The notes under the pieces were generated by a model that saw nothing but the letters and a program-made list of their open reading frames with translations, was not told the DNA's origin and did not search any database. From an uncultured Ardenticatenia bacterium (GTDB taxonomy: Bacteria > Chloroflexota > Anaerolineae > Promineifilales > Promineifilaceae): a stretch of 15,293 nucleotides of DNA. The stretch is from positions 1-15,293 of the forward strand of contig CALLZA010000743.1 in the NCBI GenBank assembly GCA_937858165.1, read 5' to 3'. Of this stretch, positions 938-15,040 are shown piece after piece; the stretch's first letter is position 1; each line of letters begins with the position of its first letter. Both the position numbers and the translations under genes were made by a program.

Positions 938-1019
938 CGAGTTACGAATGACGAGTGACGAGTGACGAGTTCAGAAGGTTGACTCTGACTCGTAGCTCGC
1001 CATTCATCTGTCGTCACTC
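938..1019. repeat. Heptameric inverted-repeat spacer, rpsD-rpoA
   Basis: The left arm holds near-perfect 7-nt units (cgagtta, cgaatga, cgagtga, cgagtga, cgagttc). After a short centre the right arm (987-1019) reads roughly as the reverse complement (gactcgt, then tgtcgtcactc). In mRNA sense the array runs from just after the rpsD stop to the rpoA ribosome site, whose GGAGG abuts the last unit. The right arm is more degenerate than the left. Confidence 0.8.
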
Positions 1020-1023
1020 CGCT

Positions 1024-1662
1024 TTAACGCGAGTAGTACTCGACGATGAGCTGCTCGTTGAGCGAGATGTCGATGTCCTCGCGGGCGGGCATGTGCAACA
1101 CGCGACCCGAAAGGGCGGCGGTATCGACCGACAACCAGCGAGGCACGCGGCGGTCGTCCAGGTTCTGGCGCAGGTCCTTAAAGTAGGTCCGGCGCAGGCT
1201 CTCCGGTCGCACCGACACGATATCGCCCGGCGCCACCAGCGCCGACGGGATATTGGTCTTGCGTTTATTGAGCATAATATGGCCGTGCTGCACCAACTGG
1301 CGGGCCTGCGGCCGCGAGTCGGCCAGGCCCATGCGGTACACCACGTTGTCCAGGCGCTGCTCCAGGGTCGCCAACAGGTTGTAACCCGTCAGACCCTTGG
1401 CGCGCGAGGCACGCTCGAAGTAGCGGCTAAACTGCCGCTCCAGCACACCGTAGATGCGGCGGGCCTTCTGCTTCTCGCGCAGCTGCAACAAATAGTCCGA
1501 GGCGCGGCCACGGCGGAACTGATTTTCCTTGCCATGTTGCCCCGGCGGATAAGTGCGGCGTTCGACCGAACACTTCGGGGTCAGACACCGCGACCCCTTC
1601 AAGAATAGTTTTTCGCCTTCGCGCCGGCACAACCGGCACACAGGACCTGTGTAACGTGCCAA
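1024..1662 (-). CDS. rpsD: 30S ribosomal protein S4, zinc-binding form
   Basis: Primary 16S rRNA-binding protein of the 30S body; in many bacteria it also represses its own operon and helps rRNA antitermination. It has 212 residues against about 205 in E. coli. The N-terminus carries four cysteines (C9, C12, C26, C31) in the CxxC-x13-C-x4-C spacing of the zinc-binding form seen in Thermus. The S4 RNA-binding domain follows from about residue 100 (RLDNVVYRMGLADSRPQARQ). The start codon is TTG at 1662-1660, supported by GGAGGT at 1675-1670, 7 nt away; no ATG gives the conserved MARYTGPVCRLCRREG start. It lies between rpsK (112-nt spacer) and rpoA (101-nt repeat spacer). In Bacillus rpsD is elsewhere, so its presence here is a lineage hint. 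Confidence 0.98.
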   Translation of the reverse strand: MARYTGPVCRLCRREGEKLFLKGSRCLTPKCSVERRTYPPGQHGKENQFRRGRASDYLLQLREKQKARRIYGVLERQFSRYFERASRAKGLTGYNLLATLEQRLDNVVYRMGLADSRPQARQLVQHGHIMLNKRKTNIPSALVAPGDIVSVRPESLRRTYFKDLRQNLDDRRVPRWLSVDTAALSGRVLHMPAREDIDISLNEQLIVEYYSR

Positions 1663-1774
1663 CTTGGTTACCTCCGAGTATTGTGCGCGGGCCGACAGCC
1701 CGCCAACCAGTCGAGAGAGGTTTACAGGCTTGGCGACCCTTCTTCCCTCTCCGCGACCAGGCCAATTGAATGAA
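1663..1774. other. 112-nt rpsK-rpsD spacer without heptamers
   Basis: This is the longest spacer in the window and one of only two long ones lacking the heptamer arrays. It contains a perfect 6-bp stem (gcgggc 1687-1692 with gcccgc 1698-1703, 5-nt loop), close upstream of the rpsD ribosome site (acctcc, 1670-1675). There is no T-run after the stem in the transcript sense, so it does not look like an intrinsic terminator. A regulatory role, for example as an S4 target, is possible but not shown. Confidence 0.4.
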
Positions 1775-2173
1775 CTAGATGCGGCGCTTCTTCGGCGGCC
1801 GACAGCCGTTATGCGGAACCGGAGTAATATCCTGAATGGATGTCACGCGGATGCCGCTGGCCTGAATCGAGCGGATGGCTGCCTCGCGGCCGGGGCCAGG
1901 CCCCTTGACGACGACATCCACTTCCTGCACCCCGTTTTCCACGGCGATGCGGGCCGCATTCTGGCCGGCCAGTCGCGCGGCATATGGGGTGCTCTTGCGC
2001 GAGCCTTTGAACCCCGACGCGCCGGAACTGGACCAGGCCACGGTGTTGCCCTTGGTGTCGGTAATGGTCACGATGGTGTTGTTGAAGGCGGCATAGATAT
2101 GGGCCTGCCCCTTGGGCACCATCTTGCGCACCTTTTTGCGCGTCGCTTGTGCTTGTCTTCTATTGCGTCCCAT
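1775..2173 (-). CDS. rpsK: 30S ribosomal protein S11
   Basis: Platform protein of the 30S subunit, near the E site and the mRNA exit channel. The 132 residues match the usual length of about 129. Diagnostic stretches are GQAHIYAAFNNTIVTITDT (about residues 22-40), SSGASGFKGSRKSTPYAA and the nearly invariant C-terminus PHNGCRPPKKRRI. The ATG at 2173 is preceded by a GGAG site 5 nt upstream. The upstream neighbour is rpsM across a 75-nt heptamer spacer; downstream, rpsD follows after an atypical 112-nt spacer. Confidence 0.98.
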   Translation of the reverse strand: MGRNRRQAQATRKKVRKMVPKGQAHIYAAFNNTIVTITDTKGNTVAWSSSGASGFKGSRKSTPYAARLAGQNAARIAVENGVQEVDVVVKGPGPGREAAIRSIQASGIRVTSIQDITPVPHNGCRPPKKRRI

Positions 2174-2186
2174 CTTTTCTCCAAAT

Positions 2187-2249
2187 ATGAGATACGAGGC
2201 GCGAGTTAAGAGTCACGCGGACTCTCAACTCGCAACTCGTCACTCGAAC
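2187..2249. repeat. Heptameric inverted-repeat spacer, rpsM-rpsK
   Basis: Left units (gagatac, gaggcgc, gagttaa) face right units (actcgca, actcgtc, actcgaa). The centre is a perfect 6-bp stem, agagtc (2209-2214) with gactct (2220-2225), around the loop acgcg. In mRNA sense the repeat begins directly after the rpsM TAG; the last repeat base (2249) is part of that stop codon. Confidence 0.8.
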
Positions 2250-13904: not shown

Positions 13905-14573
13905 TCATCCCTTGGCCGCGTCGCGGATGATAACCAGGCCACCCTTCGCGCCAGGGACGGCGCCGCGGATGGCGATGAGGTTGCGCTCGGGATCGATGCG
14001 GACGACCACCAGGTTCTGGGCCGTCTGGCGCTCGTTGCCCATGCGGCCGGCCATGCGCTTGCCCTTGGGCACGCGCGACATCTCGGTGGCCGAGCCAATG
14101 GAGCCAGGGGCACGCCAGCGGTCAGATTGACCGTGGGTCTTCACCCCGCCGGCGAATTTGTGACGCTTCACATTGCCGGCAAAGCCGCGGCCCTTGGTCT
14201 TGCCAATGACGTCGACCTTCTCGCCCGGCTCGAACTGGGCCACGGTCAACTGCTGGCCGACAGTGTAGTCGCCGGCGCTGGCGGTGCGGAACTCACGCAG
14301 GTGGCGCACGGCAGGAATGCCCTTGTCGCCGCCGCGCCGGCCGCTCTTCTTATTGCCTTTGACGATGCCTAGATGGCCCTGCTCGCCGCGGGTCAGACGC
14401 TTGGCCGAAACCTCGCCGAAACCGATCTGGATGGCGCTATAGCCGTCGTTCTTCTCATCCTTGACCTGGGTCACAAAGCACGGCCCGGCCTGGATGATGG
14501 TCACAGGGGTGACGACGCCGGTCTCGTCGAAGACCTGAGTCATGCCCACTTTTTTGCCGATTAGTCCTTTCAC
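13905..14573 (-). CDS. rplC: 50S ribosomal protein L3
   Basis: Early-assembly 50S protein whose extension reaches the peptidyl-transferase centre. It has 222 residues, slightly above the usual 205-215. It starts KGLIGKKVGMTQVFDETG; later come KTKGRGFAGNVKRHKFAGG, SDRWRAPGSIG and KGKRMAGRMGNERQTAQNL. About 12 extra residues, rich in Lys/Arg/Gly, lie near 70-85 (GIVKGNKKSGRRGGDKG) before RHLREFR. The start is GTG at 14573-14571 with a GAGGT site 5 nt upstream; no ATG gives this family start. It lies between two heptamer arrays. Confidence 0.97.
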   Translation of the reverse strand: MKGLIGKKVGMTQVFDETGVVTPVTIIQAGPCFVTQVKDEKNDGYSAIQIGFGEVSAKRLTRGEQGHLGIVKGNKKSGRRGGDKGIPAVRHLREFRTASAGDYTVGQQLTVAQFEPGEKVDVIGKTKGRGFAGNVKRHKFAGGVKTHGQSDRWRAPGSIGSATEMSRVPKGKRMAGRMGNERQTAQNLVVVRIDPERNLIAIRGAVPGAKGGLVIIRDAAKG

Positions 14574-14587
14574 GATGCACCTCGGGA

Positions 14588-14655
14588 GAAGGGCCAGGGG
14601 CTAAGGGTCATAGGGAGAGCAAGCTACCTTGGAACCTTGAACCTGGAACCTAATT
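14588..14655. repeat. Heptameric inverted-repeat spacer, rpsJ-rplC
   Basis: Left units ggccagg, ggctaag, ggtcata, gggagag face right units ttggaac, cttgaac, ctggaac, ctaattc. The right-arm words match those of the rplB-rpsS spacer, the left-arm words match the G-rich family, and pairing between the arms is weaker than in the other arrays. The centre is gagcaagctacc. Confidence 0.7.
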
Positions 14656-14660
14656 CCTCT

Positions 14661-14969
14661 CTAGAGCGAGATTTCAATATCGACGCCGGCGGGCAGGTTG
14701 AGCCGCATGAGGGTGTCGATCGTCTTGGAGTCAGGGTTGATCACGTCGATCAGGCGCTTGTGGGTTCTGATTTCGAAGTGCTCCTGCGAGTCCTTGTCAA
14801 TGAACGGGCTGCGACGGACGGTGAAGCGCTCCAGCCGGGTGGGCAACGGCACGGGGCCGATGACCCGCGCGCCGGTGCGCTCGGCCGTGCCGACGATGCG
14901 CCGGGCCGATTGGTCTAGAACACGATGGTCGTAGGCCTTGAGGCGAATGCGGATGCGTTGTTTCGACAT
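14661..14969 (-). CDS. rpsJ: 30S ribosomal protein S10 (NusE)
   Basis: 30S head protein that doubles as NusE, the NusB/NusG partner in transcription antitermination and transcription-translation coupling. Its 102 residues match the family. Sequence landmarks are KQRIRIRLKAYDHRVLDQSARRI split over about 3-25, ARVIGPVPLPTRLERFTVRRSP, and the C-terminal RTHKRLIDVINPDSKTIDTLMRL with DIEISL. The ATG at 14969 has AGAGG upstream at the edge of the tuf-rpsJ array. It is the first gene of the S10 cluster, just after tuf, as in the fused str-S10 arrangement. Confidence 0.98.
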   Translation of the reverse strand: MSKQRIRIRLKAYDHRVLDQSARRIVGTAERTGARVIGPVPLPTRLERFTVRRSPFIDKDSQEHFEIRTHKRLIDVINPDSKTIDTLMRLNLPAGVDIEISL

Positions 14970-14977
14970 ACTTTCCT

Positions 14978-15040
14978 CTAGTTAGTGACTAGTGGTTAGT
15001 GGGCAGCGACTCGTCACTAGCCACTAACCACTCATCACTT
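14978..15040. repeat. Heptameric inverted-repeat spacer, tuf-rpsJ
   Basis: Eight consecutive in-register units span 14983-15038: tagtgac, tagtggt, tagtggg, cagcgac, then tcgtcac, tagccac, taaccac, tcatcac. The second four are approximate reverse complements of the first four, so the arms meet without a real loop sequence beyond cagcgactcg. The array fills the gap from the tuf stop to the rpsJ ribosome site. Confidence 0.9.

Follow-up and report, generated by a model that had tools for sequence, protein, structure and literature searches.

Heptamer-array palindromes in the spacers of a ribosomal supercluster from an uncultured Ardenticatenia bacterium, a candidate genus-wide family of dispersed DNA elements

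The stretch of DNA analysed here (the window, 15,293 nucleotides) is the whole contig C743 (CALLZA010000743.1) of an uncultured Ardenticatenia bacterium, source assembly G000 (GCA_937858165.1; 4.45 Mb, 1043 contigs, 79% complete). On its minus strand it carries a ribosomal supercluster running from tuf to rpoA, the gene names of which were assigned from the translations, and its spacers are filled with tandem 7-nt units. Using self-matching at a distance of 7 nt (lag-7) with 300 dinucleotide shuffles per spacer as control, 14 of the 16 spacers of at least 30 nt were found to be 7-nt periodic arrays, with lag-7 values of 0.44-0.64 versus 0.24-0.26 in the shuffles (z 3.3-7.6). Thirteen of these gaps measure 73-101 nt and one 38 nt. 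These counts fit those of the initial annotation, made from the letters of the window; equal 7-nt autocorrelation in shuffled sequence, which it had named as the outcome that would overturn it, was not what we found. When the 17 spacers of at least 20 nt were pooled, the self-match was 0.51 at lag 7, 0.45 at lag 14, 0.385 at lag 21 and 0.31 at lag 28, compared to 0.20-0.30 for all other lags up to 29. The ribosomal cluster was compared with that of 36 relatives, some covered in part, of which G001-G007 belong to the same genus. The array spacers are listed below with the z-score of lag-7 and of the minimum free energy (MFE) of folding, together with what was seen at the same site in genus relatives.

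S4>rpoA, 923..1023, minus strand: GAGTGAC-type palindrome from the stop codon to the Shine-Dalgarno sequence of rpoA; lag-7 0.48, z 4.9; MFE z -3.4.
S13>S11, 2174..2248, minus strand: GAGTTGC-type palindrome; lag-7 0.51, z 4.9; MFE z -6.0.
secY>adk, 3372..3464, minus strand: CAGTTGT-type palindrome; z 5.3; MFE z -4.3; array also in G003.
L15>secY, 4836..4873, minus strand: short array of GAGTCAC/TAGTCAC units without a second arm; z 3.3; MFE z +1.4.
L18>S5, 6101..6198, minus strand: TCAGTNN palindrome; z 7.6; MFE z -3.0; GAATTAC array in G001, 21-nt spacer in G003.
S8>L6, 7103..7183, minus strand: TAGTGAC/GAGTGGC palindrome with the S8 stop codon in its first unit; z 4.2; MFE z -3.8.
L24>L5, 8436..8530, minus strand: TCAGTTA/TAACTGA-type palindrome; z 6.2; MFE z -5.2.
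L14>L24, 8855..8944, minus strand: GAGTGAC palindrome; z 7.3; MFE z -2.2; TAGGTTC units in G001, GAATTAC units in G003.
L29>S17, 9581..9664, minus strand: TAGGKNC palindrome, from AGATAGGTTCTAGG over the stop codon; z 6.1; MFE z -1.5.
S3>L16, 10495..10581, minus strand: TAGGGGC palindrome with apex GGGAAGTGCGTTCTTCCC; z 5.5; MFE z -4.6; CAGTGGN units in G001.
L2>S19, 11915..12000, minus strand: CAGGTTC/TAGGGGC palindrome; z 6.3; MFE z -3.9; arrays also in G001 and G003.
L3>L4, 13826..13904, minus strand: CAGTGAT palindrome; z 6.6; MFE z -5.3; lag-7 0.19-0.35 in the seven relatives, no array seen there.
S10>L3, 14574..14660, minus strand: AGGTTCC array with a poor second arm; z 3.6; MFE z +1.1; GAATTAG array in G003.
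tuf>S10, 14970..15042, minus strand: TAGTGGY palindrome; z 6.0; MFE z -6.4; 19-nt spacer without array in G003.

Such an element is about 60-100 bp long; its first arm, made of AG-type 7-nt units, is separated by a short loop from a second arm of complementary CT-type units. The two inverted arms described by the initial annotation are present in most spacers; the 38-nt gap lacks a real second arm, and S10>L3 forms a poor palindrome. Arrays begin no more than about 10 nt from the stop of the preceding gene and run to just before the Shine-Dalgarno sequence of the next one, and in several spacers the stop codon lies inside the first unit (e.g., TAGTGAT in S8>L6). In the S3>L16 palindrome a Shine-Dalgarno-like sequence is contained in the right end, CCTAGGAG. 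An MFE z of -2 or lower was obtained for 11 of the 14 array spacers, the exceptions being L29>S17 (-1.5), S10>L3 (+1.1) and L15>secY (+1.4). Of the two long spacers remaining, S11>S4 (1663-1774) has no array (lag-7 0.27, z 0.2), and adk>L36 (2759-2798; lag-7 0.42, z 2.1), which contains a short GTGAGCC palindrome, was not scored as one. A stricter detector, based on a lag-7 cluster score with a cutoff of 14, found 10 of the 14 array spacers and two more at 13, and missed two. Of 109 additional ribosomal loci, taken from other genera and phyla, seven had a lag-7 cluster with a score of at least 16, and only L104, from a Clostridiales metagenome-assembled genome, had more than one (four). With its 10 clusters at this score the window is thus an outlier.

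The arrays are dispersed throughout the genome. A near-complete sister genome, G001 (5.0 Mb in 3 contigs, 99% complete), was examined in 60 stretches, each of 20 kb, along its 4.0-Mb main contig, i.e., 1.2 Mb and not the whole genome; genes in this and in the G000 sample were called with our own scripts and were not curated. A total of 108 array clusters were detected, 15 of them inside called genes. With gaps of at least 30 nt considered, clusters were present in 68 of the 463 co-directional gaps, in 9 of the 78 convergent ones and in 9 of the 118 divergent ones, but in none of the base-shuffled gaps. For gaps below 250 nt the corresponding numbers were 62/371, 7/59 and 2/65 (co-directional versus divergent p 0.002, convergent versus divergent p 0.08). 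At a score of 14, G001 yielded 123 segments for lag 7 and 56 for lag 8, compared to 0-5 for lags 4, 5, 10, 11, 13 and 17. Lags 14 and 16 were high as multiples, and the 38-72 segments at lags 6, 9, 12 and 15 were put down to codon periodicity. Of the 34 arrays in co-directional gaps of at least 120 nt, 17 begin no more than 11 nt from the stop codon, 6 finish no more than 20 nt from the start codon, and 3 do both. Arrays that supply the first in-frame stop may cause some of this stop proximity; for most ribosomal genes the stop codon was found at the position used by the relatives. At positions 1973-4338 of one G001 stretch (L083), several 7- and 8-nt arrays lie inside a single 1118-codon open frame; either this frame is spurious or the arrays are translated.

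The G000 sample was weak, comprising 150 kb from 40 short contigs with 60% called as coding. Three of its 18 clusters are A- or T-rich tracts resembling contamination. These tracts (L171 3169-3204, L172 86-122 and L235 4282-4325) are unlike the remainder of the sampled assembly, and the G000 contigs concerned may be contamination. The genome scan proposed in the initial annotation was accordingly realized on 1.2 Mb of G001 and 150 kb of G000, with arrays present in convergent gaps and rare in short divergent ones. With one and the same detector, 10 of 16 ribosomal gaps were positive versus 9 of 56 co-directional gaps in the partly contaminated sample of G000 contigs. Where the initial annotation spoke of systematic punctuation, the ribosomal supercluster of the window is thus the dense end of a habit that is genome-wide, and the ribosomal clusters of sister species have far fewer arrays. 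A GTMATTC-type array pattern was found in all 8 genus genomes and in 3 of 32 other genomes. Counting overlapping matches, 251 were present in G001, 69 in G004, 63 in G000 and 24 in G003; the reversed pattern gave 2 in G000 and none in the six genus genomes other than G000 and G003. An assembly artefact, the other outcome by which the initial annotation might have failed, is unlikely because arrays of the same kind are abundant in the independently assembled G001.

Turnover of the arrays is fast between sister species: the stop codon and the Shine-Dalgarno sequence are kept, and the stretch between them is replaced. The nearest relative compared, G003 (L2 98% identical, 4-fold sites 32% different), has arrays at S10>L3, L2>S19, L14>L24, secY>adk and, more degenerate, at S13>S11. 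It has none at 8 of the 14 sites (tuf>S10, L3>L4, L29>S17, L24>L5, S8>L6, L18>S5, L15>secY, S4>rpoA), three of which are spacers of 10-21 nt; its S3>L16 spacer forms a GC-rich hairpin with a lag-7 of 0.44, not clearly an array. In G001 arrays were found at L2>S19, S3>L16, L14>L24, L18>S5 and S13>S11, in G006 and G007 at S13>S11, and no clear array was seen in the ribosomal clusters of G002, G004 and G005. At S13>S11 the spacers of G001, G003, G006 and G007 are arrays or array-like (lag-7 0.40-0.50). This comparison of the same gaps in sister genomes had been proposed in the initial annotation. The unit often changes at a shared site, as in L14>L24 (GAGTGAC in G000, GAATTAC in G003, TAGGTTC in G001) and S3>L16 (TAGGGGC in G000 versus CAGTGGN in G001). 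At S4>rpoA lag-7 is only 0.15-0.23 in the seven genus relatives. At L24>L5 these relatives share, conserved in outline, a spacer sequence containing GGYGAGCCAG, in the place of which the window has an array.

Several unit families obey one rule of polarity and placement. They comprise GAATKAS; GAGTGRC/GGGTGGC; CAGTKRN, which includes TCAGTTA, the reverse complement of TAACTGA; TAGGKNC/CAGGKNC; GACCRCN; and an 8-nt family, GCAGGGGA. Regardless of the family, the AG-type arm came first and the CT-type arm second in 27 of 27 pairs of blocks with at least 3 units, and in 47 of 47 under a looser rule applied to a larger, overlapping set. G001 contained 159 blocks, 102 of them in co-directional gaps. 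Of the 49 sense-strand AG blocks there, 48 were closer to the stop codon and 36 lay no more than 10 nt from it; of the 53 CT blocks, 1 lay that close to the stop codon and 32 were nearer to the start codon. In convergent gaps 10 of 12 blocks were AG-type relative to the nearest stop, and in divergent gaps 8 of 12 were CT-type relative to the nearest start. No polarity bias was observed for blocks within called genes (14 versus 15), and 4 blocks lay at edges. Palindromes of the 8-nt type, (GCAGGGGA)n, occur alongside the 7-nt families at L082 8099-8174, L082 10179-10259, L085 15272-15345 and L085 18713-18786, G-rich arm first and with a recurrent GGGGAGA...TCACCCC apex.

The loops recur as well. 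Among the 79 elements formed by clusters with a hairpin score of at least 12, 15 had AAGARCG or its complement at the apex, compared to 0 of 79 flanks and 0.75% of random background stretches, and this loop was found with both TAGG and GAAT arms. Three CAGT-armed G001 elements share the apex CAGTCTGGATACTGA, and a pair of G000 elements located on separate contigs has 91% identity across the apex. The recurring loops together with this pair favour copying of whole elements, most of it old. Independent slippage at each site, in which 7-nt units expand by polymerase slippage and palindromes form via hairpin template switching with no dispersal, would agree with units that are homogenised within an element and different between sites and species, and with arm mismatches that are strand-symmetric. 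It would also agree with 7-nt repeats being the most abundant class in most of the genomes surveyed by Mrazek (2007), as described in passages of PMC4679880. Such an origin appears quite improbable, nevertheless, as the same few unit families turn up across the genome in a single polarity (47/47) and with recurring loops, and one nearly identical pair of elements lies on different contigs.

Our preferred reading, which brings together periodicity, genome-wide dispersal, polarity, gene-end placement, fast turnover and recurring loop motifs, is that the spacers probably hold a genus-wide, REP-like family (REP, repetitive extragenic palindromic) of dispersed palindromic DNA elements that are tolerated at gene 3' ends. 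Elements would arise or spread at the DNA level, would be purged from genes and from short divergent gaps (i.e., promoter gaps), and would persist at gene 3' ends, in the interval from the stop codon to the following ribosome-binding site. In the species of G000 they would have overwritten most of the long spacers of the ribosomal supercluster. Spread may proceed by the copying of one element from another, through template switching, conversion or transposition, combined with 7-nt slippage. The initial annotation had left the choice between a dispersed element family and an RNA-level device, or both. The first is supported by arrays in all gap types genome-wide, by unit families and loops that recur, and by sites at which one sister species has an array and another lacks it.

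REP elements are biased to gene 3' ends. According to abstracts of the REP literature, they are extragenic palindromes of 20-40 bp in many copies, most with a GTAG or CGTC end tag and with a link to a Y1 transposase. Classical REP/REPIN elements moved by such an enzyme (RAYT/TnpA-REP) would share with the arrays the extragenic, palindromic, many-copy nature and the location near gene 3' ends, and 1-3 matches to Y1_Tnp (PF01797) were present in seven of the eight genus genomes (3 in G001). In G004 (98% complete) none was found, yet it has 69 GTMATTC array matches, which makes a Y1 transposase an unlikely driver. Compared with REP, BIME and REPIN elements as these abstracts describe them, the elements here resemble them as extragenic palindromes in many copies and differ from them as 7-nt arrays with a changing unit, not palindromes of fixed sequence, and without the Y1 link. 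Movement of classical REP elements is therefore a very improbable explanation.

As an RNA-level device, intercistronic hairpins would be selected to stabilise or insulate the cistrons of ribosomal mRNA, with heptamer arrays recruited as ready-made hairpins. The array spacers are indeed strongly structured (median MFE z -4.4 in the window and -3.5 in the genus, compared to -1.1 for non-array genus spacers; spacers above 200 nt or containing N were left out of this comparison across relatives), the elements are located at stop codons, and they are denser in the ribosomal cluster of the window than in the sampled remainder of the assembly. At S13>S11 a strong hairpin was predicted in six of seven genus relatives, whether scored as an array or not (z -3.9 to -7.3; G007 -0.8). 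An RNA stem that is maintained should show more G·U than A·C mismatches on the sense strand. In 64 elements 85 G·U versus 83 A·C were counted, in the window alone 18 versus 18, in non-array genus hairpins 9 versus 6 and in convergent or divergent elements 8 versus 12. By this equality the palindrome looks like the product of DNA-level events, and an RNA device kept by base-pair selection was rejected, this being the one strand-specific test, although the hairpins would be transcribed. In addition, elements occur in convergent and long divergent gaps, G003 does without arrays at 8 of 14 sites, three of them with 10-21-nt spacers, and permuting the units within an arm costs little pairing. We regard the RNA device as unlikely; the transcribed hairpins are probably tolerated and not a ribosomal control device.

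Unit-by-unit mirroring of the arms was likewise rejected: a permutation p of 0.05 was reached by 0 of 12 elements in the window, 4 of 29 in G001 and 0 of 9 others, although the arms had been chosen by pairing, a bias towards mirroring. Intrinsic terminators were rejected too, with 12 terminator-like sites in the window versus 12.9 expected and 0 of the 12 in array spacers. No Rfam family matched above its gathering score in the window or in loci L031, L033 and L035.

Several results weigh against a family of tolerated DNA elements. Neutral tolerance alone does not explain the density in the ribosomal cluster. Array-free spacers of relatives may also be structured, with an MFE z of -2 or lower for 33 of 100 in the genus and for 70 of 136 in the family. 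This would agree with hairpins being needed; being common, these structured spacers, along with the S13>S11 hairpin, make a hairpin role possible at some sites. Arms pair slightly better with their own partner than with those from different elements (30 of 46, p 0.054). As to copying, of the 19 pairs alike by at least 80% across the apex in the samples, the other 18 reach 85% or less, leaving one pair at 90% or above. The reversed GTMATTC pattern gave 16 matches in G003 compared to 24 real ones. No transposase for the elements was found, Y1 being the only mobility gene searched. Neither a target duplication, as expected of a MITE, nor a clean empty site was found in orthologous spacers; divergence between sister species (32% at 4-fold sites) is too large for their spacers to show a precise insertion.

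Tandem heptamer repeats of cyanobacteria are named STRR (short tandemly repeated repetitive sequences). The comparison with these repeats drawn in the initial annotation is apt, even though those of Xanthomonas and Beggiatoaceae are closer. Three heptanucleotides of Calothrix PCC7601 are mentioned in PMC4692102; they share the tandem heptamers, and that mention includes neither an inverted-arm layout nor ribosomal clustering. For Xanthomonas, the passages of Rehm et al. (2015; PMC4692102) used here describe the unit GGGAATC, of which 70 (Xcc) and 75 (Xac) convergent site pairs form inverted repeats. A share of 89-93% is intergenic, mostly between aligned open reading frames, and 7-8% lies between divergent ones. 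As in Xanthomonas, an AG- or G-rich unit on the coding strand lies near the stop codon, has its inverted partner downstream and is rare between divergent genes (here 36/49, 47/47 and 2/65, respectively). In contrast to the single G-rich unit family of these passages, studied there as G-quadruplex-forming, several families occur here. Reading the units, GAATTAC, CAGTTAT and GAGTGAC have no G runs, TAGGGGC and GCAGGGGA do. Ribosomal operons are not reported as a hotspot in the result sections and passages of that paper considered.

In the parts of MacGregor (2015; PMC4679880) consulted, TAACTGA direct repeats are reported from Beggiatoaceae, Cyanobacteria and Bacteroidetes as abundant and mostly intergenic, some of them upstream of the genes for ribosomal proteins S1, L3, S4 and S21. 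They form 2-6 direct copies with a single inverted case, are located mostly directly before start codons, in most cases with no ribosome-binding site, and related heptamers are rarely repeated. The window shares this unit in the CAGTTAT/TAACTGA arms of L24>L5; instead of one favoured unit in direct repeats, it has at least five unit families and inverted arms. In the general sense of tandem 7-nt units that are mostly intergenic and present in many copies, the arrays are intergenic heptamer repeats. TAACTGA-type arrays were found in 13 of 400 Chloroflexota genomes, and 20 places in 12 of these 13 (G103 was left out) contained 22 arrays, with genes called as plain longest open reading frames. 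Eighteen of the 22, judged by eye, are no more than about 25 nt away from a gene end, the other four being unjudged. Near a start codon they were CT-type on the sense strand (14/14), near a stop codon only, AG-type (4/4), which is the orientation reported for Beggiatoaceae. Six of the 14 start-side arrays are one-directional and reach the stop with CT-type units as well, which argues against a strict rule of AG at the stop. A literature search, aimed in part at Chloroflexi or inverted heptamer arrays and mainly outside subscription papers, gave no precedent judged closer than these two.

Some further observations concern the locus itself. In both L29 and L2, AGA serves as the last Arg codon and is part of a AGATAGGTTCTAGG junction (9665-9673 and 12001-12009). 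The L29 codon is CGN in seven of seven genus relatives and the L2 codon in five of seven; G001 and G003, the two with AGA in L2, also bear arrays there. The array seems to have recoded the last Arg codon of L29 and L2 with the residue unchanged. The S11>S4 spacer, without a visible array in the window and the seven genus relatives, contains at 1715-1751 (minus strand) a conserved RNA-like motif before rpsD, roughly GAGAGGGAWGAAGGGTNGCCANRCCTGTAAACCTCTC. A regular expression gave 21 sequences from 37 clusters, 19 of which share the motif (L057 and L062 look different); in the fold of most, a GAGAGG/CCTCTC stem on the outside is joined by an inner one, and the motif is a possible S4 leader. At S4>rpoA a sequence starting CGGCAGTTRCTCAT is common to G001, G002 and G004-G007 and absent from the window and G003. 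The ribosomal contigs of G000 (C743), G003, G005, G006, G007 and others stop about 2.2-2.5 kb before L2, i.e., in tuf, and we would guess at a duplicated tuf as the cause of these breaks.

The repeat habit is of a known kind, and the window is a local extreme of a genome-wide habit. New are the interchangeable unit families under one polarity and placement rule, the recurring loops, the fast replacement of units at fixed sites and the near-saturation of ribosomal spacers. Earlier reports of short heptamer repeats are scattered over distant phyla, each with an explanation of its own, be it quadruplexes, protein-binding sites near start codons or slippage. An account by quadruplexes only does not cover units without G runs, and several unit families under a single rule argue for a shared, testable cause. 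Tentatively, the palindromes of Chloroflexota, Xanthomonas, cyanobacteria and Beggiatoaceae might be one cross-phylum class of small genomic parasite or symbiont, defined by rule (7-nt units, AG arm first, anchoring at gene boundaries, drifting unit) and not by sequence, spread by one activity, cellular or mobile, that extends units on a hairpin, and able to carpet essential operons. Within one genus, the ribosomal operon tolerates the replacement of most of its long spacers.

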